This document shows positions 6,336-48,830 of a stretch of DNA of 64,000 nucleotides, one piece after another. The notes under the pieces were generated by a model. The model was not told the DNA's origin. It saw only the letters and a list, made by a program, of their open reading frames with translations, and did not search any database. A program made the translations under genes and the position numbers. Each line of letters begins with the position of its first letter. Position 1 is the stretch's first letter. The DNA is from Cristatella mucedo. Its lineage: Eukaryota > Bryozoa > Phylactolaemata > Cristatellidae. Location of the stretch: positions 804,501 to 868,500 of the forward strand of contig WPIO01000051.1 in assembly GCA_009760855.2 (NCBI GenBank). The letters are read 5' to 3'.

Positions 6336-6517
6336 TATATAAACTAAAGCATCAGAACAGCAGTGAGCTTTAAATAAAACATAATTGTATTACCTGATAT
6401 AGTGAATAAATGTCTTTTCTTGTGAAGAACCCTCTGACAATGCACCTTATTAAGCGCGAATAAAACAAAGCTATTGTTATTATTATCGCTTAAATAGCAG
6501 CGAGCGACGTTAATATC

Positions 6518-6592
6518 ATCGTAATTACGAAGGGTGGCAAGGTGCTCACACTTCATGACCGAGGTCGTTTGTTGGAATTCTACAGTGGGCGA
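6518..6592 (+). other. tRNA-like (pol III box) block, unit 1
   Basis: Degenerate member of the tRNA-like block best seen at 31577-31652. The B box is mutated here ('gttggaattc'). Confidence 0.35.
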
Positions 6593-7139
6593 GGCTTTTT
6601 TGAAAACTCGTGTGATCATGATGGGCGTCAAGGCTCCTATGGAGCTACACACTCAAGTGTGTTGGATCAGCTAATATTTTTTTCTGAAAGCTTAAGCAAA
6701 TTGTTGCAACTTTAAGCTTTACCACATCGACGGATCATCCCGCCTGAAGACGATTGGTCAACTATGCCAATCCAGTTCTCCAAGAATATCGTCAATGGAT
6801 GTGCTCAATAGTTAAATTAGAAAGCGGTACAAAAAAGTATACTGTGAACACAATTTGTTTGAAGAGACGCCGTTCGATCTATGCATATGTTCACACAAAA
6901 CTCGACTATGGTAATGAAAATTCTCGTACAGAGATTTGCGTTTCTTCTTGCTTCCAAAACAAACATAAGAACCACTCGTAGGACGCAAGAGTAAGGCATT
7001 GTGTTTGATATCACGTCTTTAAAACGCATGACTGCTGTACGAATAACGTATGAACCGTCAGTATTGCCAATGTCATGAAATTAGCAGTTAAGGAGGGTCT
7101 TTCTTCAGTTACCCTTACTGCTACAGCTGATATTAACAC

Positions 7140-8050
7140 GTTTGTATTAAGCCCTCAGAGAAATTGATCTCTTACTAGGCAATTTATTTAAACTGTAGGA
7201 AGCTGGATGAGCTGATAAGCTGTACAATGGCCAATTTTATCAAGCAAAACGTGGTTATTAGATTTACAAGCATAGTATCAAAACGTAAATGTGCTTAGTG
7301 GCAACATACACAGTGTTGGCATTCATAGGCACGAAACAAAAGGTCACAAGAACCCTTTAAATGCTGACAAAATAGTTGCTTTTTAAGTTTCTACTTGAAT
7401 TTTTATTCGGGGGTTGTCGTGACGTCAGACTAGAATGTGATCGAGCATTCGGGAGCAAACAAACTAAAGGTAGGGTCTCTATAGAAATTGCCGATATGAT
7501 CCCACCTGACGAAGACAGAATTTTAACGAAGCATGGATTAATTTAGATGTGGTAACCTCTCTAAGGAAGACAGAATTTTACAATGCTGTGGATCTTCGAG
7601 TAGGCAGACTTGGCTGTTGAGCTTATCTGGAGTCTTCACCCCTAACATTTTATACTTGTTTCTAATTGAGAATGTCACCACTCATCATTCAACCGTGCTT
7701 CCTATCCAGTTAATGTAAAGTGATTAGAAAGAGTTTGATTTCTCCGAGGACGCTAGATTAATTGTAATATTATTATTGTTTTTATCTATCTTCTAGTGCC
7801 TGAACACTGTGGAACAAGACACCAAGATTTTGCGAGACTTTAAGTTTTCTGATTTTTTAATGACACTTCGTTTGTCCGTAACTAGCGAGTTACTTGAATC
7901 ATCCTTTAATTTGAGAAGACCTGCTACCTTTAACAAGTGGATGACAGCATTGCATGCTGCAAGGAAGCGGAATAAGCTCAGAGCCTTGAGACACACCTTA
8001 CTTCAGCTGAGCTCCCAGTGGATGGTGGCAGACGGGCTAATGTAGATCTC
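7140..8050 (-). mobile_element. Old minus-strand L2-A remnant with a nested plus-strand L2-A 3' end (unit 1)
   Basis: 7140-7625 is a reversed L2-A 3' UTR and C-terminal region ('gccctcagagaaattgatctctt' at the tail end). 7630-7797 is a plus-strand L2-A 3' end with a TATTATTATTG tail. 7800-8050 resumes the minus-strand copy up to 'gcattgcatgctgcaag'. The same arrangement occurs at 32210-33100 and 41925-43213, so it predates the unit duplications. Confidence 0.7.
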
Positions 8051-9517
8051 CGATGTTTTATCGGCACGTGTTTTCGTGCTTTCACTTGCTATCTCGCCGT
8101 CGATTCACATTGTACTAGTTTACTTGCACTGGTGGCATTGTTCTAATACCCATGTAATTGCCCAAAACCAAGCGTTGCAAATCATCTCGTAAAACGCATT
8201 GCTTGTGGTACCATTTACGGCACCAGGCTGCGAGATTTACACGAGCAATTTCATATCGGCATTTAGTCTTCGGTTCTACTAGAAATTAGAAAGGCACAGG
8301 GTGTGAGCATCGAGGTGGTATTATGCCAATTTTTGTAACTATTTTTAAAACATAATCGAAGATTACAAGATCCCAGTATGCCCGTGGGGTCATTCCCTAG
8401 GTGTGCACTGGCTGTGATATTGATGACTTTTGCTTTTTAAAGGGGGTCTTCCTATTTTTTTTTAATATCGAGCTAATATCAGTCGATTCCTAGATTGAGC
8501 GAGACTCTTTGCATTTCATGGTCTTTACTCTTGAATTTAAGTCTTGATTTTCGTAACTCTAGCTTTGAGTTCAGTGAAAAGTTAAAATAGTAGATTAGGT
8601 ATTACTTTCCGAAGCAGTAAAGTGGGCTAACCTTATTTCGAATGCAAAAAACAAGTAACAAAATCAAAAGGACTTTTTTTGCTTGCCGAACAAAGAATTG
8701 TTGATGCAATTGTTGGATGACATCATTATCCAAGAGAAACTTTGTGTCCTATTTTAGTCTACGATTGAGAAACATCCAGTCGTTTCATCCACTGCCAGGG
8801 CATGGAGCTCGAATGCATACTATGCACGGAGGTGGACGACAACTCAGTCGTTTCTCTTCATACGAAAATCCTGAAATGATACTTCAGCATCGACGTCTCC
8901 GTCTACCCCATGACTGCTGAGGAGCAGCATAGGCTTCCTAATGAACAATGTAGTCGCGTTTGCATATCTTACATTTGAAAAATCAAGATTTTAGCAAATT
9001 GATTGCTTGGACTTTAAGATTATCAAAAATAGAGACCTCCATCAATGGCCATCATTTTCACCGATGGAGTACTCATACACATTTAAATAAAAACAGTATC
9101 GGAATTCGAGCAATAGTGGCAATCTATGCCTTAGGAATGCTGCATGGATTTGGTACGAAGCCTTCAGTATTTCTCAGCGTCAGGTGGAGTGATTAAGCCC
9201 GGCCCACCTAGTGACTTGTTTGCTTTTTGAATACCATAAGACGCAACTATTATAAACGGAATAAATGCGACATTCCAAATTATGAAACAGCATTTACACA
9301 TCAACAGAAGAGTTCAAGTGGCTACGGCTCTGCATTCGTCGGAAAATACTGGATTTAGAGCTGCAAAAAAAGAATTCACTACGTGGGTTGTAGAAGGCCA
9401 TTACCTTAGGCACACGCTAACACCACGAAGACAGTAGCACATGTAAAGAAATGAGGGGCAGCTTGTGACTATGGTGTCACTGGTCACGGAACAATCGGTC
9501 ACAGATTTCCAAACCTG

Positions 9518-10340
9518 AATAATAATAATAATAATAATATTGCACTTGATAAAGCGCCCTCAGAGAACTTAATCTCTTTCTAGGCGCTTTACATTTGCTG
9601 CAAAGTGATACGCAATAGAATAGTAAGTAAAATCATGCTTGAAAAACAAACACAATGAATAACATGGTTAGGGGTTACATGCACTGGGTCAGCATGCAAA
9701 TGTGGTTAGTGGTAGCATGAACAGTGTCAGCACGCATAAGCACATCGAGGACGAATCACAAGGACCCACTAAATGCTGTCCTAAATAGGAATGTTTTTAA
9801 GTTTCTTTTAAATGTGGTCAGGTCAGGGGATGTTCTGATGCAGGTCGGGAGGGAGTTCCAGGCTGTGGGAGCATACGAGCTAAATGCACGGTCTCCAAAG
9901 GATTTAAGGTTTGTACGAGGTATTTCTAGACTGTTGGATTCCGAAAAGCGAGTGGTACGATGCTTTGCCTGATGGGGTAGTATCTCTGAAAGATAGGCTG
10001 GAGCCATAGAATGAAGAGACCTAAAAGTGAGCGACAAAACCTTGAAGTCAATCCGTTGCTTGACTGGTAACCAGTGCAGGTCGGCGAGAAGTGGAGTAAT
10101 GTGGCAACTGCGACGCTCACGGCAGACAAGCCTAGCTGCAGAGTTTTGCACCAGCTGCAATCGCCTGATCGCACATGCTGGTAGGCCAGTAAGCAGTGAG
10201 TTGCAGAAGTCGAGACGAGATGTCACGAATGCATGGACCAACTTGGACGTGGTATCCTTATCTAAACAAGCCCTAATTTTAGCAATGTTATGAAGCTGAA
10301 TCAGTTGATGAAATGTTATGATGCAATGTTATGAAGCTGA
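9518..10340 (-). mobile_element. L2-A 3' fragment, private to unit 1
   Basis: It starts with an (AAT)n tail at 9518 followed by the family 3' end ('gcgccctcagagaacttaat'), then the C-terminal ORF on the minus strand (9756-10241, FVTSRLDFCNSLLTGLPAC, LADLHWLPVKQRIDF, TAWNSLPTCI). Unit 2 (24345-24360) and unit 3 (34700-34715) show the uninterrupted site between 'ccaa.cctga' and 'gatgaatttc'. A 31-bp direct duplication lies at its right end (10282-10312 and 10323-10353). It is one of the better-preserved L2-A pieces. Confidence 0.88.
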
Positions 10341-11338
10341 ATCAGTTGATGAATTTGAAGCCCCGCATGCCGTCAGTTCAAGGTTTCACGTCCTACGGGT
10401 AGCCGATCATGCTCAGACGGCCGACTAGAAGTACCTAAATCATACCTCGGTAGCTAACCCTATAATAATAGCCTTAATTGGTAGATTTCCACAGACGGCT
10501 ACTTTTACAGAATTTAGTCCTCACTGAAAACCAGCTGATAATGGAGATTGCAGGAGGCGAGAGATTAGTATAACTTTACCCATTCGCTAGTGAATAAAAC
10601 TAGACATGGAGATGCTACTCAAGCAGAGGCTATACGTTCGACTATCTGGCAAACAAGCTGCAGATTAAGGCCGATTTCTACTTGCTACGTCATGCAGATG
10701 CCTGGGCGGAAGACAAAGCTATGGGCGGTATGGATTCGGATTAACTCACCGAGTACACCATGCTTCAATTAAATCGGGTCAAACGGGTGCAAGTAGAGAA
10801 GAATGTATGCTGCTCGTGAGATGTGGACTAGCATTTACATTAATGGCCGCAGACTATAGCAATAACAAAACTATGGACGCAGAAACGCACTTTCACAGGT
10901 TAAATTTGTTTTGCAACAGCGTTTACTCCGTTTGTTAAGCTTAAGAAAACTAAAAAGAAACGACGAGGTGTCACCGAGCCGATGATTTCGGCTGGCCGTT
11001 TCACGTAAACCAGTGTCTCCACAAAGTCTTACTTCCGTTTAGAACGTGTGGCCTGAAACGGTGATCGGTGTTCCCGGTCTATTAGTTATATCGATGAGAT
11101 TCACTGACGGAATAGCATCAGTTCGTCCCTCCTACGGGAAAAAATATGTCCTCTGGTTCGACAACAGGCAGTCCACGGTTCGACCCAAATGGGACCAGGT
11201 CGTTACCTCAAGCCTCAAGAGTCGGCCTCCAAAATTGGCTAATCGGCTGAGCTGTGGCCTCAGCCAATGCTAGCCATAAAGCACACCAGAGCCACCCTCT
11301 TTGTTATCTAATAAACACAAGCATGCGTACGCACAGAC

Positions 11339-11400
11339 TCACACAGGCACACACAGGCACACACACAGGCACACACACTGGCACACACACGCACACACAC

Positions 11401-11447
<47 letters not shown>
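11339..11447. repeat. (CA)n microsatellite, unit 1
   Basis: Interrupted then pure CA repeat of about 110 bp. The ORFs across it (His-Thr repeats) are artefacts. Shorter homologous tracts lie at 27320-27393 and 36347-36414. Confidence 0.97.
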
Positions 11448-11448
<1 letters not shown>

Positions 11449-11629
11449 CTGGTAGAAGGCTAATCTCTTTTAATTGTCACAAAAAAACAGCAAAAATTCT
11501 CTAGACATGGACCGCATGAAGACCACTTTTTTTGAAGACACATTTATAGCATCCAGTAAAGTTTTTGCTTCACGCCAAGTGAAGCAATATTTCGAAGTTG
11601 AAAAGAATAGGTCGCTTTATTGAGTGGAA

Positions 11630-11722
11630 AAATATGTGTACAATTCATTTACTGGGCAGGCAGGTGAACTTTATGTCTATGCAGGCTCGTCCAGTATCCC
11701 GCAGGGTATTACCGGAAGGCCT
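11630..11722 (-). mobile_element. Degraded SINE remnant, unit 1
   Basis: Reversed SINE tail ('acaattcattt', 'gaactttatgtctatgcagg') and part of its head ('ggcctcaatcatcg'). It is homologous to 27580-27680 and 36600-36711 and resembles the better copy at 62540-62682. Confidence 0.5.
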
Positions 11723-11734
11723 CAATCATCGAAT

Positions 11735-12490
11735 CAGTTTAGATAAGGATACCTCGTCTAAGTTTTTCGATGCATTTGAATCACACCATCTTGATTTCTG
11801 TCCGACTCTGCTCGCTGGCCTCCTGGCATCTGAAATTAGGCGATTACAGACTGTGCAAAACTCTGCAACTAGGCTTGTCTGTCGTGAGCATGGCAGTTGC
11901 CACGTCGCACCACTTCTCGCCAACCTGCAAAGGCTACTAGGTAAGTAACGGATCGGTTTCAAGGTCTTGTCGCTCACTTTTAGGTCACTTCATTCTTTGG
12001 CTCCAGCCTATCTCTCAGATCTACTCTCCCACCAGGCCAAGCATCGTACCACCTGCATTTCGGAATCCAACAGTTTACCAATACCTAGCACAAACCTCAA
12101 ATCATTCGGACAACTTGCATTTAATTCGTATGCTACCAAAGCCCGGAACTCCCCCCCCCGACTTGCGTCAGAACATCTCCTGACTTGACCACGTTTTAAA
12201 AAAAAAACTTAAAAGCACACCTATTTAGGACAGCATTTAGTAGGTCTCTGCGATTCGTCTTTCATGTGCTTATTCGTGCTGACACTGTGCAAGCTGCCAC
12301 TAACCACATTTTCATGCTGACCTTGTGCATGTCAACCCTAACCATGTTATTCCTGTTGTTTATAAAGCATAATATTACTTGCCATTCAATCGCGCTTCCC
12401 TTAACAAGAAATGTAAAGCACCTTGAAAGAGATTGAGTTCTCAGAGGACGCTTTATCAAGTGCATTATTATTATTGTTATTATTACTATT
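11735..12490 (+). mobile_element. L2-A 3' fragment shared by units 1 and 3
   Basis: Plus-strand L2-A C-terminal region (frames at 11598-11948 and 11967-12188) and 3' UTR, with a TTATTATTGTTATTATT tail ending just before 'gcagtcccctagacc'. Unit 3 has the same insertion with the same left end (36712-37465). Unit 2 has the empty site near 27680. Stops and frameshifts are present. Confidence 0.85.
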
Positions 12491-12931
12491 GCAGTCCCCT
12501 AGACCTCGGTCATCAAGGTGCCCAAGTAACCTTTTGGGTCAACTTAGGGATGCAGAATATTCAGTCTAAAAAGGTATTCAGACGATTGAAACGATAACAT
12601 TGAAATGATGATAAGACCATTAGGCCGTGTATTAGAATTGAGTTAATTCACCAACCATAAACTATCTCGGCTTTGCCACAGCATGAAACCTCGCTGACAG
12701 CTGACGACTGAAATAGGCTCCAGCTGATAATGTCAACTGAGTAAAAGCCAGCATTAATGCAAATTCTGAGGGACTCAAGTTAGGTTTCTGTCACATGTGT
12801 GCCTCAACGAGAATGACTGAATCTTACTTTGACCGCGATCGCTCATGTTTAGTCATTCATTTTTTTGACTTTTTTAGGCTTGGCGATTCTCTTGGCTCAA
12901 CCGTCGCAAAACGAAAACGAAACTCTTTGGC

Positions 12932-13057
12932 ATGGCTGCAAGTTACCAAAGCCCAAATCACGCCGCAGATGAGCAGGACGAAGCTGTAAGTCAATACTTT
13001 CGTTTTCAGGCTACTGATCACAATGTACAAGTAAACGTAGGCAGTTTGACGACTTAA
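12932..13057 (+). pseudogene. Short ORF conserved between units (unit 1 copy, early stop)
   Basis: 41 codons from ATG, ending early at TAA. The peptide (ADEQDEAVSQ, FQATDHNVQVNVG) corresponds to the unit 2 (28122-28313) and unit 3 (37907-38116) ORFs. No known family recognised. Confidence 0.25.
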
Positions 13058-13259
13058 TACCACGAGGGCGTCCGGAAAAGTATGCTGGAAGACGGGCATT
13101 TACCCAGAAGCTAAGCTCTGTGACAGCGTCAGAGTGGTAACTGAAAATTCTAGATGACTCTGTAGAGCTATACAGCTGTAGCTGTGTGCTGCTAAGTGAG
13201 CTTCGTGGATCTACGCAGCACGATTACTACAGCATGCTTACAGGAAACCATCACATTCC

Positions 13260-13605
13260 TGAGAGAGGCTTTAAATCATGCTGAACCCCATGATTCATTT
13301 TACAGTTCCTATGTTTGCGCAAAGCCCTAAAGCTCACATCCAACGTGCAACCTCAACGAGGAGCTGACCCGTGCTATTCGTTCTTTGTGTATTTATGCAT
13401 GCTTACAGTGTGCATGTGGCCACTAACCATATTTGCATTCTCAACGCATGCATGTCACCTCTAACCGTGTTAAGCTAGGTTACTCTCAAGCATGCTACTT
13501 CAATGCATTTTATCATGCTTCTTTTGCAGCACATGTAAAGGGACTAGAAAAGAATTGAGTTCTGAAAGGGCAAAATACAATTCGTATTATTATTATTATT
13601 ATTAA
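13260..13605 (+). mobile_element. L2-A 3' UTR remnant present in units 1-3
   Basis: L2-A 3' UTR ('gtgcatgtggccactaaccat', 'catgcatgtcacctctaacc') and terminal sequence, with a (TTA)n tail at about 13580-13605. Equivalent copies lie at 28450-28775 and 38280-38610, so the insertion is older than the array. Confidence 0.7.
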
Positions 13606-13929
13606 ATGCTGGTGCAAGTGCTCGTGCTCACTGCTCAGCCTTCACCCGAATTTAAGAAAAGCACAAAAATCTTCCAACAGCTGCTGTAAATGCCTGTACA
13701 CTACAAGGCTTTCCTTTGTAGCCAAGGCACCTGCAAGAGTCCGACTTCGGACAGCTCGAAGACACAGCTGTCACTTAAATTATGCAGGCATAGGAGCTAG
13801 TCTGCAGTTTGTAGAGAGCAGCGTTCCTCATTAGCCTGGCTTACTGCATCCTTGACCTAACTAGAGCTTGCAGCATATTCTGAAAAATGCCATTTCAATT
13901 TAGCCTCATATACTACCGTGTTACTGGTT

Positions 13930-14560
13930 TGCTCACCAAATATTTGCTGCAAATGTGCTGTGGCGATTGTCACCTTAGAAAGCTACACTTTAGCGGCCAC
14001 TTTTGAAGGGTGATCTGCCTTTCCATTTCTAAATAGGCTGTACGAATCAGCAGTCTCGATTCCCCATAGCTAACAGCGGTGTCCTGAGTTTACGCGTGAG
14101 TTTCGCACTTTTCCTCATGAGCATTCTTATGAAAATGACCTCCAGTAGTCCGCCTAGGCACTTTTGTACCCCAATCCACTTGCCAGTTTCAAATCAAGTG
14201 GCGAGACGCTACGATTTAGATTCTACTTAGTAGACTTTGTTGCTTTGTGTTCTTCCTCAAATTCAGACACTTGTGCATGTAAGTTTTCATGCAAATGGCC
14301 TGAGAGAGCATGGTCCGGCCCATTGGAATCACGATACACATGCTAATATAAAAAGAAGCCGTAACACACTTTGAGTTTTTGCCACAGACAAAACTGTGTC
14401 GGCCATTTACCGAAAAAAAACATCTTCACACTGCCAGGTCGCATTTTTATGCAAATTACATTCAACATGATGGCCCAGCCGGTGGGCCAGCACGTTAGTG
14501 GCTTAGAGACACTCCTGACCTGCGGCAAGGACTGAAGGCATATCCAGATATACTGTATAA
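13930..14560 (+). repeat. Satellite block, about 165-bp monomers, unit 1
   Basis: The recurring words 'atg[ac]aaatggcct' and 'gcacttttg' recur at about 13960, 14130, 14294 and 14454, a period of about 160-170 bp. Monomers are well diverged from one another. Homologous blocks lie in the other units and, reversed, at 49600-50240. Confidence 0.6.
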
Positions 14561-16779
14561 GAGCCGCCACAGCGCCTGCAGCTTCTTCCTTCTAACTTAC
14601 ACGATTAACCTTACGTGCCTCAACCCACATACTTATTTATTCGGTCTCACCATTTTGCAAAAGGCTAACTTAGTGAGCTTAATACTTATTTTCGAATAAG
14701 TGAAGTGGTCAGCCGATGCGGTGTCGCACGCCAGGGTTATGTGGCTGCTACAATCCTAATTCAATTCTTCCTCAATCAAGGGCTCACGATCTTTGAACAC
14801 CGGACTGTTTACAAATAAAGTGGTACCTTGGCTCACGAGTTTAATTTGTTGGGCGACGAGGTCTAACTCAATTTACTTGTAAGTCAAATTAGTGTTCACA
14901 TTTAAATGAAATCAAAGCCACTATTATGCTCCACACCACCAAAAACTATCGCGATTTTGTGTCACCTGTTTTAAATTAAAAGATCTACTTACATGCAACG
15001 GACATTGTTGTAAAGCAATTCAAGAGAACGTACCCGCAGTAATCGGGTTTTATGATTTCTTTAGTACGACGTGGAGATTAGGTGACCAGTAGATGTAGAT
15101 GAAACCCTATGACAAATTTGTCGGCGACGTGGAACGCTCGTTTATTGGCTGGGCATTTACGTGGACGTACCGATTGTTATCAGTTATGCGAAGAATTCTT
15201 ACACGAAGGTAGTGCCTAAGTAAAGTAGGGTACGTAATTAGCTGTACCTGCTGACTAGTCACATTTAAATTTTGAGTCTGGCGATCTTGTGCAACCATTA
15301 ACCAGGATGTATCTCTTGAGTCTATATAGGTGCGAACCTCGTTGCCTGAGCTTGACTCACGTTCGGGTCGTCAAGTAGCTTCTTGCAGCTCAACGTCTTT
15401 CGCTGCCCCACCCTGAATGGACCAATTAAATGCAAGCAGTCTTCCCTCGACCCTCCTGCTTGCATCGCTGACACACGCAGTCGCACACTTATACATGAAA
15501 GAAATTGCCGTTGCAACCGCTTCCTGTGAACGAGTGTGGCACGGGATGCTTGGGTGGACTTTGCAGGATTCACTGTGAAGTTCACTGTGTCAACCCACTG
15601 TGGGGTATTTTTACCGGATGGCAACTCAAACATTAGCTCCAAAATCTAACAAAGAGTCGGCCTAGAGACACTTCGTATATCTGAAAACTCGCAGGTTCGC
15701 ACACTCCAAAGTCAACGTACCACTGTGCACGCCTACATGTGCCCAGAGACAAGAATATTCTGTTGCGTGCTGAGTTTTCGGAAGGTTTCTGACTCGATCG
15801 CTGGACCTGACGTTCAGTGAGAACAATGTGCAGTGATAAGATGCATCAAAATCCTCTAACTGCCTGCCGCTAGCAAGCAAAAACCATTGCCACTAATTGT
15901 TGTTATTCGCCCTTTTAAAAGATGCTACTGTGAGTGGTGCCACTCTAAAGTGCTCATCAGCTTAACTACCAAAAGAAACAAATATGAATAAAATCTATTA
16001 AAATCCTCGTCTAAAAACTATTAAAATTCAGCTGTAAAACATCAACAGCTGTAGCCAAGAAACATATCTCAAGCTAACTGATAACAAATATCACAGAAAA
16101 CGCAATTGCAAATGAAGCGTGAAACCCAAGGATAAATGTTAGTGGTGTGATACAAGTTGCTTTAGTATCTGATCTTTCCAATTTCAGTGCTGAAGGCTCA
16201 CAGCTCGAATTTACAAACTGGCTGGTAACCGGAAGCGTGAATGTGATCACCCTTTTCTAAAAGAAATTGAAAACTGTCGAGGAAAACTCCGTGTAGCCAC
16301 TACAGAACCCTTCTAAGGCACGGGTCGGATTATTTACATTCTTTTAATGAAGAGTTTTCTCGTGGAAATCATGAAGTAAGGAATGCTAAGCCATACCGAG
16401 CAAGGCGATGTCATTAAGACTGTTAGGTCTTTTAGACCAATGATGCTAATTTTAATCTGAAACTGATCCTTTAAATTAAGTTACTAATTGTGCGTAAAGT
16501 CTCTTGTTTAATTGATAGATTCTGCTTGTGCCTGCATATGGCATTCTGTGGTGTGGCCAAAGTCAGTAACTACTTTGTGTCTTGCCAGCTCTTATGGACC
16601 TCACACAGACAACAGACCAATTTTGGCAAATCACAAGTTGACTATATGAACCATGGCAAATTAGTTGAAGGTTAAAAACAGCTTGCGATGAAGCCGCTGA
16701 AAATGCAGCTTATTAAGAACAAATCAAGCAGAGCTGTTGTTAATATTATTGCTTAAATGGCAGCGAGCTACGTTAATGT

Positions 16780-16855
16780 CATTGTACAAGCTAAGGGTGG
16801 TAATGTGCTCACAATTCACGACCGAAGTCACTGGTTTGAATTCTACAGTGGGCGA
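16780..16855 (+). other. tRNA-like (pol III box) block, unit 2
   Basis: A-box-like 'aagctaagggtgg' and B-box-like 'ggtttgaattc' about 45 nt apart. See 31577-31652. Confidence 0.35.
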
Positions 16856-17389
16856 GGCTTCGTTGGAAAATGCAAGCGATCGTGATAGCCATTTAGGGTC
16901 CTATGGCGCAATGCACAATTGCCTCTTAGATGAGCTAATATGTTTCCTAAAAGCTTAAGCAAATTGTTGAAACATTGAGCCGTACCAAATCAACGAATTG
17001 TCCTGCCTGGTGACCATCGGTCAACTATACCTATCCAGTTCTCAAAGAACATCGTGCAAGAATGTGCTCAATAGTTAAATTTGAAAGCGGCACAAAAAGG
17101 TTTACGTGAAGACACTTTGCTTAGAGACATGCCGTTTGATCCACACGTATGCTCACTCAAAACTCAACTATGACAACGGAAATTCCCTTACAGAGATTTA
17201 TGTCATCGTACTTCGAAAACAAACATATGAAACAATCGTGAGATGACACACAAATGCATAATGTTTAATATCACGCCATAAAAGCGCATGACTACAATAC
17301 GAATAACATACGAACCATAAATATTGCCACTGTCATTAAATTAGCACTTAAAGAGGGTCTTTCTTTAGTTACCCTAACAGCAGGAGCAG

Positions 17390-18250
17390 ATAATAATACA
17401 TTTGTAGTGAGCCCGATAAGAATTCGATCTCTTACTAAGCAATTCATATAAGCTGGAAGAAGCTGTATCAACTGATTGGCTGTAAAGTGGCAGATTTCAT
17501 CAAGCAGCACATGGCTATTAGAGTGACAGACACAGAATCAACATGTAAACGTTCTTAGTTGCAACATGCACAGTGTCGGCACTCAGAAGCACTTAAAAGA
17601 AATGTAACGATAATCATCTAAATGCTGACAGAACTACTGCTTTCTAAGCTTCTATCTAAATGTTTATTTGTGGCAGGTCGTGACGTCTGACTGGAATGTG
17701 ATTCAGGATTGGAGGGAGTGCAAACTAAAGGTAGCGTCTCTAAAGGACATGCGGTTCGTGCGAGATATAGCAAGCGATTCGTTTCAGAAAAGCGGGTGTC
17801 ACGATGCCTACAGCCTACTTGGGCCGTAGTTCTGACAGGTAGGCATGAGCGAAATAATGAAGGGACCTAAAAGTAAGTGACAGACCCTTCGAGTCGATGA
17901 GCTGCCGGAATGGGTAGCTAGTGCAGGTCGGACAGAAGTAGTGCGATTTATCAACTGTGCCGCTCACGGCAGACAAGAGTAGGTGCAGAGTTTTGCACCA
18001 ACTGTAAGTGCCTGATTGCACAAGCCGGTAGACGAGAAACAGTGGGATGCAACAGTAACGACAAAATGTTAACAACGCATTGACCAATTTAGATGTGGTA
18101 TCACTGTCTAAGGAATGGATCAAATCATAGGCACAGCTAAATTTCGCTTGCGTGAAAGTGAAAGCCTAGATTGTGCTTGGCGGTCATATCGGTGAGAGGG
18201 AGAGAGTATAAAGTGAGAATAGAACCGGACCGAGCAGGGAGCGTTGAGGT
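17390..18250 (-). mobile_element. Old minus-strand L2-A remnant, unit 2
   Basis: Equivalent of 7140-8050, but with more of the C-terminal region kept (17815-18130) and without the nested plus-strand 3' end. 18150-18250 jumps to an RT-proximal segment ('gtgaaagcctagattgtgcttgg'), so there is an internal deletion. Heavily decayed. Confidence 0.65.
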
Positions 18251-27300: not shown

Positions 27301-27319
27301 CTAATAAACACAAACATGT

Positions 27320-36599: not shown

Positions 36600-36711
36600 T
36601 ATATATATATATATCCAATTCTTTTGTTGAGCAGGAAGGGGAACTTAATTTCTATCCAGGCTCGTCCATTATCCCTCAGGGCTCAACCGAAAGACCTCAA
36701 TCATCAAAGGC
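36600..36711 (-). mobile_element. Degraded SINE remnant, unit 3
   Basis: Preceded by an (AT)n run at about 36600-36612. Carries the reversed tail ('ggggaacttaatttctatcc') and 'gggctcaaccgaaagacctc'. Same position as 11630-11722. Confidence 0.5.
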
Positions 36712-37465: not shown

Positions 37466-37906
37466 GTCCCCTAGACCTCGGTCCTCAAAGGTGACCCAGT
37501 TAACTTTTGGGAAAAACTAGGGATGCAGATTATGCAGCCTAAAAAAGAATTCAGACGATTGAAACAGTTACATTGAAATGATAAAAAGATAATTGGGCAG
37601 TCTATTAGAATTTAGGTAATTCACCAACCATAAACCATCTCGGCTTTGCCGGAGCATCAAACCTCGGTGACAGCTGTCAGCTGAAATAGGCGCCAGCTGA
37701 TAATGTCATTTGAGTAAAAGCCAGTATTAATGCAAGTTCTGAGGGACTCAAGTTAGGTTTCTGTCATACGTGTCCCTCAACGACAACTGCTGAAGCTTAC
37801 TTTGATCGCGATCACTCACGTTCAGTCATTCAGACTTTTTCGACTTTTTAAGGCTTGGCGATTCACTTGGCTCAACCCATGCTAAAGGAAAACGAAACTC
37901 ATTGCT

Positions 37907-38116
37907 ATGGCTGCACCTTATCTGAGCAAAAATGACGCCGCAGATGAGCAGGACGAAGCTGTAAGGCAAGACTTTCATTTTCAGGCTACAGATCACGTTC
38001 TACAAGTAAACGTAGGCATTCTGACGACTGAATACCACGAGGGCGTCCGAAAAAAGTATGCTGGAAGACGGGCATTTACCCAGAAGCAGAGCTCTGTGAC
38101 AGCGTCCCAGTGGTAA
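37907..38116 (+). CDS. Unknown 69-residue ORF conserved between units (unit 3 copy)
   Basis: ATG to TAA. Residues 1-49 match the unit 2 ORF (28122-28313) at about 45 of 49 positions. After RK an extra A shifts the frame and gives a different C-terminus. Function unknown, and possibly not coding. Confidence 0.2.
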   Translation: MAAPYLSKNDAADEQDEAVRQDFHFQATDHVLQVNVGILTTEYHEGVRKKYAGRRAFTQKQSSVTASQW

Positions 38117-38157
38117 CTGCAAATGCTAGATGACTCGGTAGAGCTATATAGCTGTAG

Positions 38158-38197
38158 CTGTATATATGTATATATGTATATATGTATATATGTGTGT
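38158..38197. repeat. (GTATATAT)n microsatellite
   Basis: About five copies of 'gtatatat', then 'gtgtgtat'. Private to unit 3; the flanking 'agctgtagctgt...gctgcta' is shared with units 1 and 2. Confidence 0.9.
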
Positions 38198-38279
38198 ATG
38201 CTGCTATGTGAGCTTCGTGGATCTACGGAGAATGATTACTACAACATGCTTACAGGAAACTATCACATTCCCGAGAGAG

Positions 38280-38610
38280 GCTGCAAATCATGCTGGTGCC
38301 CATGATTCATTTTACAGTGCCTACGTTTGTGCAAAGCCCTAAAGCTCACATTCAACGTGTAACCTCAACGAGGGGCGGATCCGTGCTATTTCTTCTTTGT
38401 GTGTTTTTACGTGCCTACAGTGTGCATGCTTTCACTAAACACATTTGCATTCTCACCGTATGCATGTCACCTTTCACCGTATTAAGTTAGTTAACTATCA
38501 AGCAAGCTATTGCAATGCATTTGATCATGCTTCTTTTGCAGGATATGTAAGGGACTAGAAAAAATTGACTTCTTGAAGGGCACAATAAACAACAAATTAC
38601 TATTACTATT
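38280..38610 (+). mobile_element. L2-A 3' UTR remnant, unit 3
   Basis: Equivalent of 13260-13605 and 28450-28775. The tail is decayed ('attactattactattaaa'). Confidence 0.65.
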
Positions 38611-39109
38611 AAAAGCTGGTGCAAGTGCTCGTGCTCACTGGTCAGCCTTCACCCGAATCCAATAAATGCAGAAACATCGTCCAACAGCAACTGTAAATGC
38701 CTGTACACTGCGAGGCTTTCCTTTGTAACCGAGGCACCTCCAAGAGTCCGACTTCGAACAGCTCGAAGATACAGCTGCCACTTAAATTATGCAGGCATCA
38801 GGCTAGTCTGCAGTATGTGGAGAGCGGCGTTCTTCATTATCCTGACTTACAGCATACTTGGCCCTGTGGCACTATGGTCGTAAGACTGGTTTCTACCGTT
38901 AGCCAGTATTACTGTAACAGAAAGAGCATGGTTAAGCACGACTTACTGGTTGACTGTTGCATTAAGAAGCCGGACTTCAATGTTAAAGGACCCATAGCTT
39001 GGTTTGGATTTGAGGCCAGCAGCTGTATTTCCTATATCCGACTAATAGCTTCGATCCACTGTTATCGTAACGAAAAGACTATCGGACGAATGCGATTTCA
39101 ATTTAGCCT

Positions 39110-39760
39110 CATACACTACCGTGTTACATGTTTAGTCACCAAATATTTGCTGCAAATGTGCTGTGGCGATTGGATCCTTAGACTAGGCGGCCACTTTTGA
39201 AAGGTGATCTACCTTTCCATTTCTAAACAGGCTGTACGAATAAGCAGTCTCGATTCCCCATAGCTAATTACGGTGTCCTGAGTTTAGACGCGAGTTTCGC
39301 AATTTTCCTCGTGAGCATTCTTATTAAAATGACCTCCAGTAGTCCGCCTACGCACTTTTGAACTGCAATCCACTTGCCAGTTCCGAATCAAGTGGTGAGA
39401 TGCTACGACTCAATTCTACACAGTAGATTTTGTTGCTTCGTGTTCGTATACAAATGTCAGGCACTTGTGCATTGAAGTTCTCACGCAAATGGCCTCAGAT
39501 AGCATATTCCAGCCTTCTGGAATCGCGATACACATGCTAATATAAAAAGAAGCCGTAAAACCCTTCGAGTACTTGCAATAGAAAAAAATTGTGTCGGCTG
39601 TGTTCCGAAAAAAACATCTTCACAGTGTCAGTTTACATTTTTATGCAACTTATATTCAACACGATGGCCCAGCCAGTGGCCCACCACGTTCGCGGCTTAG
39701 GGCCACTCGTGTTCCTGCGACAAGGACTGCAAGCATATCCCGATATACTGTATAAGAGCG
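39110..39760 (+). repeat. Satellite block, about 160-bp monomers, unit 3
   Basis: Monomer words at about 39150, 39326, 39484 and 39645. Confidence 0.6.
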
Positions 39761-41281
39761 TATACTGTATAAGCCTGCAGCTTTTTCCTGCCATCTTACA
39801 CGATTAACCTTACGTGCGTCAACCCACGTACATAATTATTGGCTCAGACCATTTTGCAAAAGGCTAACTTAGTGAGCTTAATCCTTATTTTTGAATGAGA
39901 GAAGTGGTCAACCGAAGCGGTGTCGCACACTAGGGATCTGTGGCTGCTACAATCGTAATACACGTCTTCTTGAATCAAGGGCTCACAATCTTTTCACACC
40001 GGAATGTTTACAAATAAAGTGGTACCTTTGCTCACAAATTTAATTAGTTCCGCGAAGGAGGTCATAACTCAATGTACTCGTATGTCAAATTTGTGTTCCA
40101 CATTTAAATGAAATCAAATGCCACTATTTTGCTGCTGACCAGCAAAAAATAACGCAATTTTTTCAAGTGTTTTAAATTAAAAGAACTACTTACATGCAAC
40201 GGACATTGTTGTAAAGCAATTCAAGAGAACCTACCCGCAATTATTGGGTTTTAATGTTTTTAATGTTCAACGTGGAGATCAGGCGACTAGTAGATGTGTA
40301 CGATACTGTATGATAAATATGTAGGCGACGTGGAAAGCGCATCTATGGGCAGGGCTTTTATGTGGAAGCGCCGATTGTCATCAGTTATGCGAAGAATTTT
40401 TACACGAAGGTGGTACCTAAGTAAAGAACGGTAGGTACTTAGCTGTTCCTGCTGTAGTCAGATTTAAAACTGGACTCTGGCGATCTTTTGCAACCAAGAA
40501 CCAGGAGGTATCTCTTGAGTCTATATAGGCGCAAACCTCGTGGCCTGAGCTTGACGTCACATTCGGGTCGTCAAGTAGCTTCTTGCAGCTCAACGTCTTT
40601 CCCTGCCCTACCCATAATGACCCAATTAAAGGACAGCAATCCCTCCCTCCACCCTCTTGCTTGCGTCGCTGACACACGCACTCGCGCTTGTATAAATGAA
40701 AGAAATTCCGTTGCAACCGCTTGAGGTGAACGCGTGTGGCATGGGATTCTGGGTGGACGTTGCAGGGTTCACTGTGAAGTTCACTGTGGCAACTCTCGGT
40801 GGGATATTTTTACCGTATAGTAACCCAAACTTTAGCTCCCAACTCGAACGAAAAATTGGCCAGGAGACACTTCGTATATCTGAAAACTTGCAGGTTCACA
40901 CACTCCTTAGTCAACGTACTACTGTGCATGCCCACACGAGATCGGAGACAAGCAATTTCCGCTGCCTGCTGAGTTTTTGCCAGGTTTCTGACTGGATCGC
41001 TGGACCTGACGTTCAGTGAGAACAACGTGCAGTGATAAGATGCATCAAAATCCCTATACTGCCTGCCACAAGCAAGCAAAAAATTTTTGCCACTAATCGC
41101 TGTTATTCGCGCTTTAAAAAGATGCTACTGTGAGTGGTGCCACTCCAAAGTGCTCATCCGCTTAAATAACCATAAAAACAATTATGAATAACACCTATTA
41201 AAATCCTCTTGACTAATCACTAAGACTCGAGCAAGTCGAAGATCTACCCACGGACATGCCACACATGATTTTTTGTTGATT

Positions 41282-41492
41282 CATAATGATCTTTATGATG
41301 ATATAGCCGATCGCTTCTCTCTATTTTTTGTCCAGAAGATAGACAAGATCAAGGAGTCCATCCCTGCGATGACAACATCTCCCCTATAATGCTGTTCCCC
41401 GATTCCTGGCTGCTCCTCATTGTGTCCATTTAAGCAGGTTCCTAGTGATCTCGTCCTGAAGTTCATATCCCAATCAAAGAAGACAACGAGTG
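41282..41492 (+). mobile_element. L2-A internal fragment (pre-RT region)
   Basis: Matches 21110-21270 of the large L2-A ('gacaacatctcc', 'gtccatccctgcgatg'). It has no 3' tail and lies within unit sequence that is continuous at 48360-48420. Confidence 0.65.
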
Positions 41493-41924
41493 GAATGGCT
41501 CATCCTGCAATGACGGTAGCAGTTTTGTAATTTGATTTACGCTCTATCAGTGTTATTGCTCGTCCCAAAGTCAGGGATGTAATTCAATCGGCAGGCTGGC
41601 TCAATTCTACCAAATCTGAGCTGTATTATTTCAAGAAATAGCAAGCATTGTATCTCAAAAAATAATTTCTTCACCCTCTGTTTACTCTTGAGATCGCTTT
41701 GAGCCTTTAGCAGGCTCAAACTTTCGAATACAGTGTCCAGAACTACCTGCCTTTGGTGTGCTGGCATCCTTAATTTAACGGCTATATATCTGTGAATGTA
41801 ATTCTTGAGGTGTAGTACACGTAACGTACAGCATAAGTGAATGGCAGTGTGGACGCATTGCTCCGTAGAAGGATACCTAGTCTGTGCATCGCCTTAGTCA
41901 ATAACTAAGTCAGTTTGGTCGCAG

Positions 41925-43213
41925 TTAATAATAAAAAATAATGCACTTGATAAAGCTCCCTTGGAAAGCTCAATCTCTTTCTTGGCGCTTTACATTTGCC
42001 GCAAAGTGAAATGAGATTTAATGGTGAGTAATATCATGCTTGATAAACAACATGGATGACATGGTTAGGGGTGACATGCACAGGGTCAGCATTCACATGC
42101 GGTTAGTGGCAGCATGCACAGTGTCAGCACGCATAAGCACTTGAAGGACGAATCTCAGAGACTCACTAAATGCTGTCCTAAATGGGTGTGTTTTTAAGCT
42201 TTTTAAACGTGGTCAAGTCAGGGGACGTTCTGACGCAAGAAGGGAGAGAGTTCCAGGCTTTGGGAGCATACAAACTAAATGCACGGTCTCTAAAGGATTC
42301 GAGGTTTGTGCGAGGTATTGGTAAACTGTTGGATTCCGAAAAGCGGGTGGCACGATGCTTAGCCTGGTGGGGAGAAGATCTGAGAGACAGGCAGGAGCCA
42401 AAAATGAAGTGACCAAAAAGTGAGCGAGAAAACCTTAAATTCAATCCGTTGCTTGACTGGTTGCCACATCACACCACTTCTCGCCGACCTTTGCAGGTCG
42501 GCGAGAAGTGGTGTGATGTGGCAACTGCGACGCCCACGTCAGCCAAGCCTAGCTGGGGAGTTGTGCACCAGATGTAATCGCCTGATTGCACATGCTGGTA
42601 GGCCAGCTCGTAGTGAGTTAAATAAGTCAATAGGATGTTGACAACACATGGACCAATTTAGATGTGGTATCCCTGTCTTAAGTCTTTTGTTTCAAGGAAG
42701 AAAAGATTCTACCGATGCTGGGGGCTGCAAGTAGGCAAACTTGACTGTGGAGTTTATCTGGAGTCTTCACCCCTAAGCATGTTATGTTTGTTGCTTATCG
42801 AAATGCTGCCACTCACTATGTGACCGTGCTTCCTGTCCAGAGAATGTAAAGTTCTTAGAAGGAGATATAGTTCTCTGAGGGCGCTATATCAAATGTATTA
42901 TTATTATTATTATTATGGTTATCTGATCGTCACTTTGGAATAGGACTCTTTGATTGTGTGCAGTTGTAATAGGAAATTTATTGGCACAGCCTATTTTGAG
43001 AGTTAAGTTTTCCAATTTTTGAGTCACACTTGGTTTTTTCGTTGCTAATAAATTAGTTGTATCGTCATTTTTTTTAGAAGACCTGCCGAGTCAATGACAG
43101 CAATTCATGCAGCAAGTAAGTAGAAATAGTTCTCTGTGCTGGAGGCCTGGAATGGATCAAATCAAAGGCACAACTAAGTGTCGCCAGTATGAAAGTGAAA
43201 GCCTAGATTGTGC
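41925..43213 (-). mobile_element. Minus-strand L2-A with nested plus-strand 3' end and a 30-bp palindrome
   Basis: Tail and 3' end at 41925-42000, C-terminal region 42178-42690, plus-strand nested L2-A 3' end at about 42745-42920 with a (TTA)n tail, then the minus-strand element continues to 43213 ('gtgaaagcctagattgtgct'), where L2-B begins. It is better preserved than its counterparts in the other units. Confidence 0.8.
42461..42524. repeat. Perfect 30-bp inverted repeat with 4-base loop
   Basis: Left arm 42461-42490, loop TTGC, right arm 42495-42524, an exact reverse complement. The right arm is normal L2-A sequence, as in other copies. The left arm is a reversed copy that replaces the usual 'tagccagtg'. 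This is the mark of a snap-back template switch. Confidence 0.95.
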
Positions 43214-43641: not shown

Positions 43642-44193
43642 ATGCCTCTCACCGGTGTGATATACCGGCCTCCTTCTGGCTGTCTAAACTTGTTTATAGA
43701 GGAGTTTTCAGAGTTCCTCGCGAAAATATTTGTGTGTGACAGGCCGCTACTGATTGTAGGAGACTTCAATATTCACGTTGACAACCCTAGCAACAGCCAG
43801 ATCTGCTCATTTCTTGACTGTCTGGAGAATTCTGGTTTGGCCCAACACGTTAATCATAGCACCCACGTCGGTGGCCCCATTCTAGATCTCGTGATCACTA
43901 AGGATGTCCTCCCCACTGACTTTGTGGTGTACCCACTGACCCTCTCAGATCATTGTTCGGTCTCGTTTACTGTTCCTACTCCCTCATACGTTCAGGGCAA
44001 TGTCGAATTTGCCAAACGACGTAACTTACAAAGCATTGACATGGACAAATTTTTGATATCTGTTTGTGATGCAGGCCTTCTTGATCTGCATTCAGACTCG
44101 ACCGGCAGCCTCTATACCCTCACTGATGCGATGAACATGACACTCAGAAGTGCTCTTGACAAGCATGCTCCCGTTCGCTCTATCCGTGTTTAA
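43642..44193 (+). pseudogene. L2-B endonuclease domain, C-terminal two thirds
   Basis: Open stretch of 183 codons with the catalytic boxes GDFNIH and SDHCSVSF both intact, unlike copy 1 (EDFS). The N-terminal part (43330-43614: LLNVRSLK, LTETWM) lies in another frame before a stop. Ends at TAA where copy 1 reads Gln. Confidence 0.85.
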
Positions 44194-44510
44194 AGTCATC
44201 GAGATTGCTTTAAATTTACAAAAAAACTCCTTAAGATGCGCCGTGTTGAGCGCAGGCTGGAACGTTGGTTCAAGAAATCGGGGTCAGAGGCAGACCTAGT
44301 CAATTTTAAAGACTTCCTTCGAGTTTACACCCGAAAGCTTAAAAAAAAGCCAGGGCTTCTTTTTTCATTAGAAGACTGAATTTCTGCCAGTCGGACACTA
44401 AACAGATTTATAAGACAGTAAACCATTTACTGGCCAATGCTGTCAGGTCTGACTTCCCAGATATTAAGGGCTCAGCCGAAAAGTTTTCAGCCTTCTTTAC
44501 TGAAAAAATT

Positions 44511-45041
44511 GTGCACATTCGTGCCTCCATTAAGCCCCCTCCGACCAAAGCAATCGCCGTTCCTCAACCTGTGACCTTTCTTAAAAGGTTCTCTGATGTT
44601 TCTGCCTGTGGTGTGGCTGCCTTAATAAGGTCTAGCAAAAAGAGCTCGTCTCCTGAAGACCCTATACCTTCATCTCTGTGGTCTTCACTAACAGACCAAC
44701 TTAGCCCTGCCATAACCAAGATTTTTAATGCTTCTTTGGGAAAAGGGGTCGTCCTCAAGTCCTTCAAATCGGCAATCGTTAGACCTATTCTTAAAAAGCC
44801 TGGATTGGGCACAGAGGTCCTAGCAAACTATCGTCCAGTTTCCCTTCTTCCGTTCTTATCAAAGATTCTTGAAAAAATTGTCGCTAAGCAGCTAGTTGAA
44901 CGTATTGAAAACAATGGAATGTCAGAAACATTTCAGTCAGGGTTCAAGAGGCAGCACTCTACTGAAACTGCTCTCCTACGTGTTAACAATGACATTCTAC
45001 GTGGCAACGACGACGGAATGTCACTGCCTAAGCTCTGCTAG
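44511..45041 (+). pseudogene. L2-B reverse transcriptase N-terminal part, ending at the shared frame break
   Basis: RT fingers region (SAIVRPILKKPG, YRPVSLLPFLSK, FQSGFKRQHSTETALL). It ends GMSLPKLC then TAG, exactly as in copy 1. The motif A sequence follows in a different frame. Confidence 0.85.
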
Positions 45042-45091
45042 ATCTGTCTGCTGCCTTCGACACCATTGATCACGAAGTTCTGCTTGAACGA

Positions 45092-46300
45092 TTGAGAACA
45101 ACGATCGGTCTGGCAGACGAAGCACTGGCGTGGTTTAAATCCTACTTGTCCGATCGTGTTCAATCCGTGTCGTGTGGGGGTCAGGTCTCAGACATAAGAA
45201 GGGTCACCTGTGGAGTCCCTCAAGGGTCTGTACTTGGTCCCTTGCTGTTCTCTATTTATACACAACCTCTGGGAAAAGTGATTAAGGCCCATGGATTAGG
45301 ATATCACTTCTATGCTGACGATACTCAGTTGTATTTGTCATTTAAACCGTCGGAATCTGCAGCAGCAACTGAAAAACTGAATGCTTGCCTTGCCGATATT
45401 CGATCCTGGATGTCGGAAAACATCCTGAAATTAAATGACGATAAAACCGAACTTCTTCTCATAGGACACCCTAAGCGTGTAGCTGGATTAAAAGGCTTTG
45501 CTATTCCAATAGGTGATGCTATTGTGCGACCTTCAACAAGTGCTCGTAATCTAGGTGTCGTGTTCGACAGCTGCCTCAATTTCAAAAGCTTCATTCAGAA
45601 GACTGCCTCTACAGCTAGCCATCACATCCGATCCCTATCCAAGGTTAGAAGCTGTCTCCCACAGTGGCTTGTAAAAAATTTAACTAGCTCTTTAGTTCTG
45701 TCTCGGCTTGATTATTGTAATTCCCTTTTGGCTGGGCTACCAAAGAAAGCTATTATGCCACTACAGAGGACTATGAATATGGCTGCAAGGCTGGTCTTCA
45801 AGTCCCAGTGGTTTGAACACGTGTCACCTTTGCTGGAAGAGCTAGGATGGTTGCCGGTTGAGCAAAGGATACAGAGCAAAGTTCTTACGCTGACCCACAA
45901 GGCCCGCCACGGCTTGGCTCCTTCATACCTAGCTGAACTGCTGCATCAGTTTAAGCCTGTTCGCGCCCTCAGGTCATGTGTGGACAATAAATTAGCTGTC
46001 CCATTCCTCCGCTTAAAGACAGTTGGCGACAGAAGCTTTAGCTCTGCAGGTCCCAGACTGTGGAACTCGCTTCCACAATTCTTACGCAACGACATCTACT
46101 CTCCAACTGCCGACTATGGCACATCTTTTTCAGCGGTCCTGAACTGCTACTTTTATGCTACTCACTACCTCAACTGCTCTCCTAACTCTGCTGTGCTTCC
46201 CACTTTCTCTTTGTTGCGTGAGACGAAGTCTGTTGGCTACCGAATGCGTACCGAAAGCCGCTTAGGCTGTGAGTGGGCTATACAAAACTCTCCTGCGTAA
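45092..46300 (+). pseudogene. L2-B reverse transcriptase, palm to C-terminus, 402-codon open stretch
   Basis: Longest uninterrupted RT piece in the window. Motifs in order: [46 protein letters not shown] (catalytic YADD intact), [23 protein letters not shown], then the L2-type C-terminal domain ([47 protein letters not shown]). Motif A ([13 protein letters not shown], about 45034-45072) lies just upstream in this frame, behind the shared break. The last 60 codons run past the conserved end. Confidence 0.9.
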
Positions 46301-46344
46301 CACCCACATGGTCTTTATGACTTTGTGGAGTTACTGACGGAGAT

Positions 46345-46370
46345 GCATTACATTACATTACATTACATTA
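46345..46370. repeat. (CATTA)n LINE tail
   Basis: Five copies of the pentamer at the 3' end of L2-B, followed at once by unit sequence. Confidence 0.95.
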
Positions 46371-46689
46371 GTCTGCAGCATGTGGAGGGAGGCGTTCCTT
46401 ATTAGCCTGGCTTGCAGCATATTGGCCCTGTAGCGCCGTTGTCCCATTGCTGGCATCTGGCGTAAGCGAGCACTGCTGCAACAGAAACAGATTTGTTAAA
46501 TACTACTTACTGGGTTGATTTTTGCATGAAGATGCAGGACTCGTAATGCTATAGAACCCATAGCTTGGTTTGGATTTGAAGCCACCAGATGTAGTTCATG
46601 GATCTCCCCGATAGCTATGATCCACTGTGATCTTAATGAGAAGATGATCGGACAAATGCGATTTTAATTCAGCCTCGTACACTACCCGG

Positions 46690-47310
46690 TTACAGGTTTT
46701 CTCACCAAACATTTTATACAAATGGCCTCTAGCTATCCTGGCCATCAACTGGACCGGTACTTTTGAACGGTGATCTAGCTACCATTTCCAAACTAGCTGT
46801 GCGAATCTGGAGGCTTCATTCCTCATTATAGATAACGGTGTCCCGAGTTTAAGCGCGAAATTCGTGCTATTTTTCATGCACGTTCTCATGAATATGGCCT
46901 TCAGTAGTCCACCACGGCAGTATCCCGGCACTTTTGAACTGCATTCCACTTGTGTGTTCCACATAAAGCAGCACGGGTCTGCAATTTTAATTCCACTCTA
47001 TATCCGACGTTTCTTTCATTCCTTTCACAAAATTCAAGCATTCGTGCTTTCGAATCGCCATGCAAATGGCCTTCAGATAGCATGGTCCGACCTTTTAGAA
47101 TTGCGATATGTATGCTAATAAGAAAGAAACTTGTAAACGCGTTTAATTTAAGTCCAAGCCACATAATAAATTGCATTGGCTTTGTGGAAAAAATTATCTT
47201 CAAGACACTGCACGTGTGCTATGTTATGCAAATTAAATTGAACGTAGTGGCCCAGCACTTTCGAGGCTTAGCTCAACTCACTGACACGTGTCAAGGACTG
47301 CAAGCATATC
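46690..47310 (+). repeat. Satellite block, about 172-bp monomers, unit 4
   Basis: Monomer words ('acaaatggcctct', 'gaatatggccttc', 'gcaaatggccttc', 'gcaaattaaattg') at about 46720, 46892, 47063 and 47230, a regular spacing of about 170 bp. Confidence 0.65.
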
Positions 47311-48830
47311 TGGATATATTGTATAAGCGCAGCCACAGTGCCTGCAGCTTCTTCCTGCCAAATTCAAAGCCATTAAGCTTGCGTGCATTAACACACATAG
47401 TTAAGTATTGGCTAACATAGCTACACGAATATTTGACTCGGTGAGCTGAAACCTAATTTTTAACGGAGAGCAGTCATCAACCGAAGCGGTGACGCACGCT
47501 AGGGATCCGCAGCCGTGAAAGCGCATTTATTGGCTGGGGTTTTACGTGGACGCGCCAATTGTTATCAGATATGGAAGGAATTCTCGCAGGAAGGTACTGC
47601 CTAAGTAAAGTACAGTGTAAACGTAGCTGTTCCTGTCGTAGTCAGACTCAAAACCGGAGTTTGGCAATCTTGGGCAACAAAGAAAGCACCATAAGGTCTC
47701 TCTCGGGTCTGACTGGGCGCCAACCACACGGCCTTCGCTTCACGTCATACCCGGGCGTCGGGTAGCGTCTTGCAGCAAAATATCTTTCGCTGCCATACCC
47801 TTAGTGGCACCTAGTAAATGCAAGCAGTACCTCCCTCCTCCGTCTTGCTTGCTTCGCTGACACATCCATTCGCACTCGTATATATGCAAAGAATTCTGCT
47901 GCAACCACATAAAGTGAACGAGTAGGGCACGAGATTATCGCAGGACGCTGCAGCGTTCACTGCGACTCGCTGCGACAACTAGCGGTGAGGTGTCTGAAGC
48001 TATTTCGTAACAAAAATTGTATCTCTCAACTAAAAGCAAAGAATCGGCCGAGAGACAGCTCGTGTCTAAGAAAACTCATAGGTTCGCACGTTTTAAAGTC
48101 AACGTGCCACTGTGCATGCACACTTGTGCTAAGAGATAAAGATTTTCCGCCGCCCGCTTCGTTTTCGGCAGGTTTCATACTGGTGTTCAGGATCAGACGT
48201 GCAGTGAGAGGACGCCTCAAAATCCGTATACTGCCTGCCGCGAGCGAGCAGAAACCATTGCCACTAATTGCTGCGATTCGCCATCTAAAAATGTTACTAC
48301 CATGTGTGATGTCGTGCAGAAATGCTCAAGTCCTTTCAACTTATCACTGAAACTCGAACAAGTCGAAGAACTTCCCAAGAATACGCCACCCAAGAATCTC
48401 TGGTAATTCGTGGAATGGCTCACCTTGTAATGGCGGCAGCAGTTCCGCAACTTGATTTAAGCTCTCAGAGTTATTTCGCGCCCCAAACTTAAGGATGTAA
48501 GTCAATCGGCAGGCTAGCTCAATCATACCAATGCTGAGATTTGGCATTTCAGGAAGTAATAAGCATTTAATCTCGTCAATTTATTTATTCTTCGTCTTTT
48601 CAAATTCAACGTTGTTGGAGCCTTAAGCAGGCTCATTTTTTCAAACATTTGATCTAGAACTACTTACCTTTGCTTTGGTGGCATTCTCACTTCATCGGCT
48701 AAATATGTACGGATGTGATTATTGAGGTGTAGTAAACGTAACGTACAGCTTACGTGACTGGCGGCGTGGCAGGTTTGCACTCGAGAAAAATACGCCTGTG
48801 CTGCGCCGAAGCTAATAACTAAAATAACCG

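Follow-up and report, generated by a model that had tools for sequence, protein, structure and literature searches.

A probable old cluster of tandem and inverted segmental duplications, without a recognised gene, in the bryozoan Cristatella mucedo

Segmental duplications are usually recognised by an identity of at least 90% between copies, and the units of macrosatellites are kept nearly uniform by homogenisation. In one description of macrosatellites, units measure at least 100 bp and typically several kilobases, and the arrays are highly polymorphic (PMC3599962). Non-allelic homologous recombination (NAHR) between long interspersed nuclear elements (LINEs), as treated in one source, concerns LINE pairs that are longer than 4 kb and more than 95% alike (PMC4344489). 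The locus described here is a set of related units in and around a 64,000-nucleotide stretch of the Cristatella mucedo genome (the window; C464:804501-868500, in an assembly of 572 Mb and 688 contigs). A sequence-only reading had described it as a diverged tandem array, either a macrosatellite or an old segmental duplication. The results presented here favour the latter: with a probability of about 85%, the locus is an old, low-copy, stepwise and neutral cluster of tandem and inverted segmental duplications of a 9-10-kb block, in which no gene was found.

Self-comparison of the window with BLAST bears out three full units and one partial unit, all on the plus strand and joined by same-strand collinear blocks. 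Unit C (31200-41926) is full and serves as the reference; A, B and copies beyond the window show the same order of blocks. Unit A (6316-16008), also full, shares eight blocks with C at 84.6-86.9% identity and carries a private LINE fragment (9515-10300) in addition to a LINE fragment common to A and C (11737-12485). Unit B (16682-18544 and 23034-31201) is full and split by a private LINE block, and its blocks match C at 75-84%. Unit D (42647-43124 and 46369-48822) is partial, with LINE sequence in place of the portion corresponding to C 33071-38804. Its blocks match A, B and C at 72-78%, and in a sensitive search those with C lie at 70.6-73.3%. The same self-BLAST applied to five first-order Markov shuffles of the window gave no non-self match in any of the five. 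LINE fragments account for many of the remaining matches in the window. The similarity of the units is not merely that of LINEs, because the collinear blocks also cover nearly unique sequence: segment 33390-34690 drew only 9 first-look candidates from the genome, all of which were scored, and its 13 matches comprise 11 on contig C464 and 2 on contig C674. The collinear units A-D are explained neither by LINEs nor by chance, and what the self-comparison reveals is collinear blocks, not only scattered LINE matches.

The landmark positions given in the sequence-only reading are correct to within 1-2 bases. The landmark 'cagtcccctagacctcggtc' is exact at 12492 and 37464 and has one change at 27681, and 'cttgagtctatatagg' stands at 15315 and 40514. 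The proposed period of about 10.3 kb, once private insertions are removed, also agrees with the start-to-start distances. These are 10,263 bp from A to B, 14,796 bp from B to C (~10.3 kb after subtraction of the 4.5-kb LINE block private to B, at 18.5-23.0 kb), and 10,053 bp from C to D, an interval that contains two LINE fragments. Two other claims require correction. The supposed satellite block at 13930, 29290, 39110 and 46690 is ordinary unit sequence with no internal tandem structure; Tandem Repeats Finder returned no tandem repeat in 38800-40200, and a repeat search found no direct families in 39000-40400 and one two-copy 18-base family in 13850-15200. The span assigned to the array, 6336-48830, is too small, as the cluster extends beyond it.

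At least ten long copies are spread over ~265 kb of C464, in both orientations. Minus-strand copies l5, l6, lB and a cut-off relative of lB occupy 587-639 kb, the minus-strand copy Z3 lies at 769-773 kb, and a plus-strand series at 781-853 kb consists, in order, of Z2, Z1, a partial Z0, A, B, C and D. From about 639 to 769 kb of C464, no match was among those listed by the genome searches with unit segments, 648-754.5 kb not having been fetched. The best 40 candidates were scored in the genome searches. For one 1.5-kb unit segment, 41 genome matches were listed, including nine long ones, all on C464, and 32 short ones; the nine together with D make ten copies. Among the matches listed for other unit segments were cluster members on C464 and short dispersed pieces. 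A 354-bp piece on another contig (C674:442851-443204) is 98.6% identical to Z1 and has LINE-rich DNA on both flanks. The genome search, which had been suggested as a check, thus reveals a local cluster of at least ten copies, with only this fragment and short pieces elsewhere among the matches listed.

The distribution of copies also bears on whether the whole unit is a large transposable element. Parts of the unit are indeed dispersed repeats, and the near-identical piece on C674 would fit a mobile sequence. However, no long copy off C464 was among the matches listed, full-length dispersed copies such as a transposable element leaves were not encountered, and the matches of the fully scored segment 33390-34690 are, apart from the C674 piece, confined to C464. 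A large transposon was rejected for the lack of long dispersed copies among the matches listed, and it is extremely unlikely. Blocks of at least 1 kb that are present in few copies without being a transposon, as expected of segmental duplications, are what was found.

The copies were made at different times. An alignment of the 3' half of the unit, with ten copies and 3941 columns, is the basis of the pairwise identities and of a tree. The identities of A, B, C and D range from 71.2 to 85.4% in this half. Adjacent units are not the closest: A and B are 74.9% identical and B and C 76.8%, versus 85.4% for A and C. This order of similarity shows that homogenisation has not acted on the array. Across the cluster, C and l5 are 83.6% identical and B and Z1 83.0%; lower values are found for C and D (72.4%), A and D (71.2%) and A and Z1 (70.8%), and the highest for l5 and l6 (99.5%) and Z2 and Z3 (92.9%). 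The tree parts A and C from the remaining copies with a support of 0.97, unit A being of the A type. By identity, age classes of 99.1-99.2%, 90-95%, 85% and 71-77% can be recognised, and the copies fall into two main unit types plus the distant unit D.

A macrosatellite would be a tandem array of large units kept uniform by exchange, variable in copy number and perhaps with a role in chromatin. Kilobase units do stand head to tail, both in A-D and in a pair upstream of the window, exchange between units has occurred, and the upstream pair is a younger 10.1-kb tandem duplication at 90-95% identity. However, the window units are only 71-85% identical, the homogenised units of a macrosatellite are not seen among A-D, and the roughly ten copies lie in both orientations with other DNA between them. 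A macrosatellite was rejected for divergence, orientation and the order of similarity, and it is very unlikely. Of the two classes proposed from the sequence, the old segmental duplication is retained; the macrosatellite is abandoned for these reasons and for the interruptions of the array.

An insertion common to A and C adds to the relative dating of the segmental duplications. A LINE fragment with an ATT-type tail occupies C 36709-37461, and the same insertion is present in A at 11737-12489; these filled sites were compared with uninterrupted ones. The undisturbed site is found in B (about 27678), l5, l6, lB and Z1, with the near-identical l5 and l6 counted as one observation. A and C are 87.3% identical in the insert and 84.6% and 87.1% in its flanks. 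The insert is about as diverged as the flanks, which fits arrival of the LINE before the split of A and C. No clear target-site duplication was seen at the insertion, and the LINE family is very abundant, with 18,459 first-look genome candidates, of which the best 40 were scored. Overall, the comparison supports insertion of the LINE in the common ancestor of A and C.

Younger duplications lie upstream of the window and perhaps in the minus-strand set. Upstream of the window, a head-to-tail pair at -30035 to -19907 and -19906 to -10027 (relative to the window) is 90-95% identical; its period is mostly 10,129 and 10,427 bp, but 9,881 bp at the end. The middle junction has no base in common with either outer end beyond the copy, and thus no microhomology. 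LINE homology at the ends of this duplication was sought and rejected, the only matches being chance ones of 10-11 bases. To the left of a third related copy, at -3473, the sequence resembles that at the outer left end of the pair; this end therefore represents the older state, and the middle junction is new. In the minus-strand set, a 16.6-kb pair (C464:587179-603789 and 627052-643573) is 99.1-99.2% identical and 40 kb apart. This pair may be a recent duplication or two alleles assembled side by side. The second possibility would favour an assembly artefact, in which alleles or misjoined copies lie next to each other. However, the units of the window differ by 15-29%, far beyond allele-type error, and the 194 kb fetched around the cluster contain no N. 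It is hardly conceivable that such an artefact accounts for the cluster.

Recombination between two unit types, by crossover or conversion, gave rise to unit B, whose nearest relative switches at one sharp change point. In its 5' part, B resembles lB (79-88%) and C (76-86%) more than Z1 (67-76%); past C coordinate 38,450, the closer match is Z1 (84-89%), with C at 70-81%. Scoring was done at 747 sites at which Z1 differs from the state common to A, C and l5 and at which B carries one of the two states. B matches Z1 at 11% of 400 left sites versus 67% of 347 right sites. The best change point, at C 38445/38452, gives a log-likelihood gain of 131.8 versus a maximum of 9.6 in 300 permutations, and the change is somewhat gradual across the 170 bases past it. 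The breakpoint in B is located at 28620-28790, corresponding to C 38445-38620 or so, in or beside a dispersed LINE-3'-like repeat (C 38377-38621). The position of the breakpoint inside this 245-bp repeat may be due to chance, as it concerns one event and the repeat makes up ~3% of the scanned length.

The unit is without a detected gene. Identity is broadly even along it, and by eye there is no codon-position pattern. Among the 30 best rows of open reading frames (ORFs) of unit C, none outside the LINE had a protein identity consistently above the DNA identity. The ratio of non-synonymous to synonymous substitution rates (dN/dS) was scanned over the wider region, which holds 2399 ORFs of at least 40 codons. 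In the best rows of the ranking, at most 60, those of low dN/dS correspond to LINE reverse transcriptase or simple repeats, with the exception of one stretch of 45 codons. Twelve of the 20 proteins scanned against Pfam came from units or spacer, and none of the twelve has a family above the cut-off. Rfam gave no match in the window at the gathering score, and ARAGORN found no tRNAs there; below the Rfam threshold there are 12 matches in 37900-39100, and a TA-rich repeat near 38150 accounts for 11 of these. The description of the unit as having no recognised gene holds in the codon-position, ORF-conservation, dN/dS, Pfam and Rfam tests that were run. A hidden gene was rejected by the first four of these among the rows ranked best, and the tests leave room for very short spliced exons or a non-coding RNA.

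Gene families typically form local tandem clusters with members in both orientations, and the cluster could represent such a family that has mostly decayed to pseudogenes and in which short exons went unrecognised. The 45-codon stretch of low dN/dS, found in Z1 and its relatives and matching C near 38.8 kb, agrees with such an origin. However, small insertions and deletions break its frame between copies, no non-LINE frame is consistently conserved among the best 30 and best 60 rows, and the unit and spacer proteins lack a Pfam family. A decayed gene family is improbable.

Several observations weigh against a purely neutral, fully catalogued and simply layered cluster. The best 100 columns of five copies, the most conserved in the 3' half (C 38713-38813), exceed permutation with a p value of 0.012; at other window sizes in the same five copies, the best 30 columns are marginal (p 0.035) and the best 50 show no excess (p 0.59). 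At each of the three sizes, the variance between windows is larger than in permuted columns (none of 1000 permutations reached it), and therefore the substitution rate is not perfectly even. The stretch C 38713-38813 has at its core a motif of 33 bp (32 bp in C); four variable positions aside, this motif is identical in each of the seven copies that cover it. With regard to the catalogue of copies, weak ones may have been missed by genome searches in which only the best candidates were scored. Finally, lB is mixed: of 280 sites that distinguish B from both C and l5, it agrees with B at only 114, and the history is therefore more tangled than two unit types.

The 33-bp motif is the sole hint of constraint in the unit, and a weak one. 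Exact matches to it number seven in the genome, all on C464 and none elsewhere, for a motif picked after the alignment had been viewed and with a search that would miss altered copies. Folding of 116 strand-windows as RNA gave low z-scores of -7.0 (with a trivial energy), -6.9 (on the TA-rich repeat) and -4.8 at 38662. An RNA structure at the conserved stretch was rejected, as one of 38 pairs is changed on both sides and the covariation term is unfavourable (+1.81). There is a slight chance that the unit carries a small functional element, consisting of the 33-bp motif with a predicted 7-bp hairpin, perhaps a structured RNA or a protein-binding site. If so, a functional motif would have been multiplied with the unit and held constant in seven copies while its surroundings drifted by up to 30%.

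It had been stated that how the array is generated or maintained is not evident from the sequence. Its generation can now be described further, on the basis of the dated duplications, the common LINE insertion, the exchange in B and the microhomology-free junction. Tandem duplications would have arisen by end-joining or by replication-based copying. Unequal exchange or conversion between adjacent similar units would then account for the mixing of unit types, and inversion for the minus-strand copies. Thereafter, the copies presumably decayed through neutral substitution, LINE insertion and deletion. The array is apparently maintained by nothing and would persist for want of removal.

Several features lie beside or between the units. 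The right-hand neighbour, outside the array, is the N-terminal part of an MPP10 homologue (57650-58318, plus strand; PF04006, E 8.6e-29). A putative C-terminal piece of MPP10 lies ~15 kb further right and is a probable assignment, with an E value of 8e-4 that is below the Pfam cut-off. A probable transposase remnant lies between the copies of the left set (C464:604745-606326); its open frames include a Spin-doc-type zinc finger (PF18658, E 6e-8) and match DUF4371 weakly (E 0.012, under the cut-off). Two LINE copies in the window (1-1716 and 43659-45376), in opposite orientation, are 94% identical over 1.7 kb and younger than the surrounding units. A 21-bp minisatellite of 7.1 copies (25493-25641) is related to repeats of the left set at about 587.8-588.4 and 627.7-628.3 kb of C464; it leaves several frames open, an artefact of its period. 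Elsewhere in the assembly, contig C688 (21,008 bases) is mitochondrial, with cox3, atp6, cox1, nad3, nad1 and nad6 recognised by eye. It has an apparent 2.1-kb tandem duplication, in which the same frames recur (at 2633 and 4748 in one stretch of the contig), and it reads best with the invertebrate mitochondrial code as judged by conserved cox1 and cox3 residues. MHC class I was looked for and not found, but this carries little weight, as the search was equally negative in all 14 control genomes.

The cluster provides a legible record of the growth and decay of a tandem cluster without a recognisable gene. Age classes, a LINE insertion with empty sites, a recombinant unit and a microhomology-free junction are found together in one place, which makes the locus a helpful example for the study of array turnover, though not a new kind of system. 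As in LINE-LINE NAHR, many related LINE fragments are present in both orientations, and the exchange point in B falls in a LINE-3'-like repeat. Unlike LINE-LINE NAHR, the exchange in B joins matching positions of two units, so that pairing may have been guided by the unit as a whole, and LINE homology is absent from the junction of the upstream tandem duplication. The macrosatellites D4Z4, DXZ4 and RS447 are similar in having kilobase units head to tail, whereas the copies here, in one assembly, are few, diverged, in both orientations and not homogenised. The closest likeness is to old segmental duplications, or low-copy repeats, which also consist of kilobase blocks in few copies within one region, tandem and inverted, of several age classes and mosaic through exchange. 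Unlike segmental duplications as usually defined, those of the window share 71-85% identity, and only the upstream pair (90-95%) and the left pair (99%) reach 90%; the window units, being below that threshold, are therefore called old segmental duplications.

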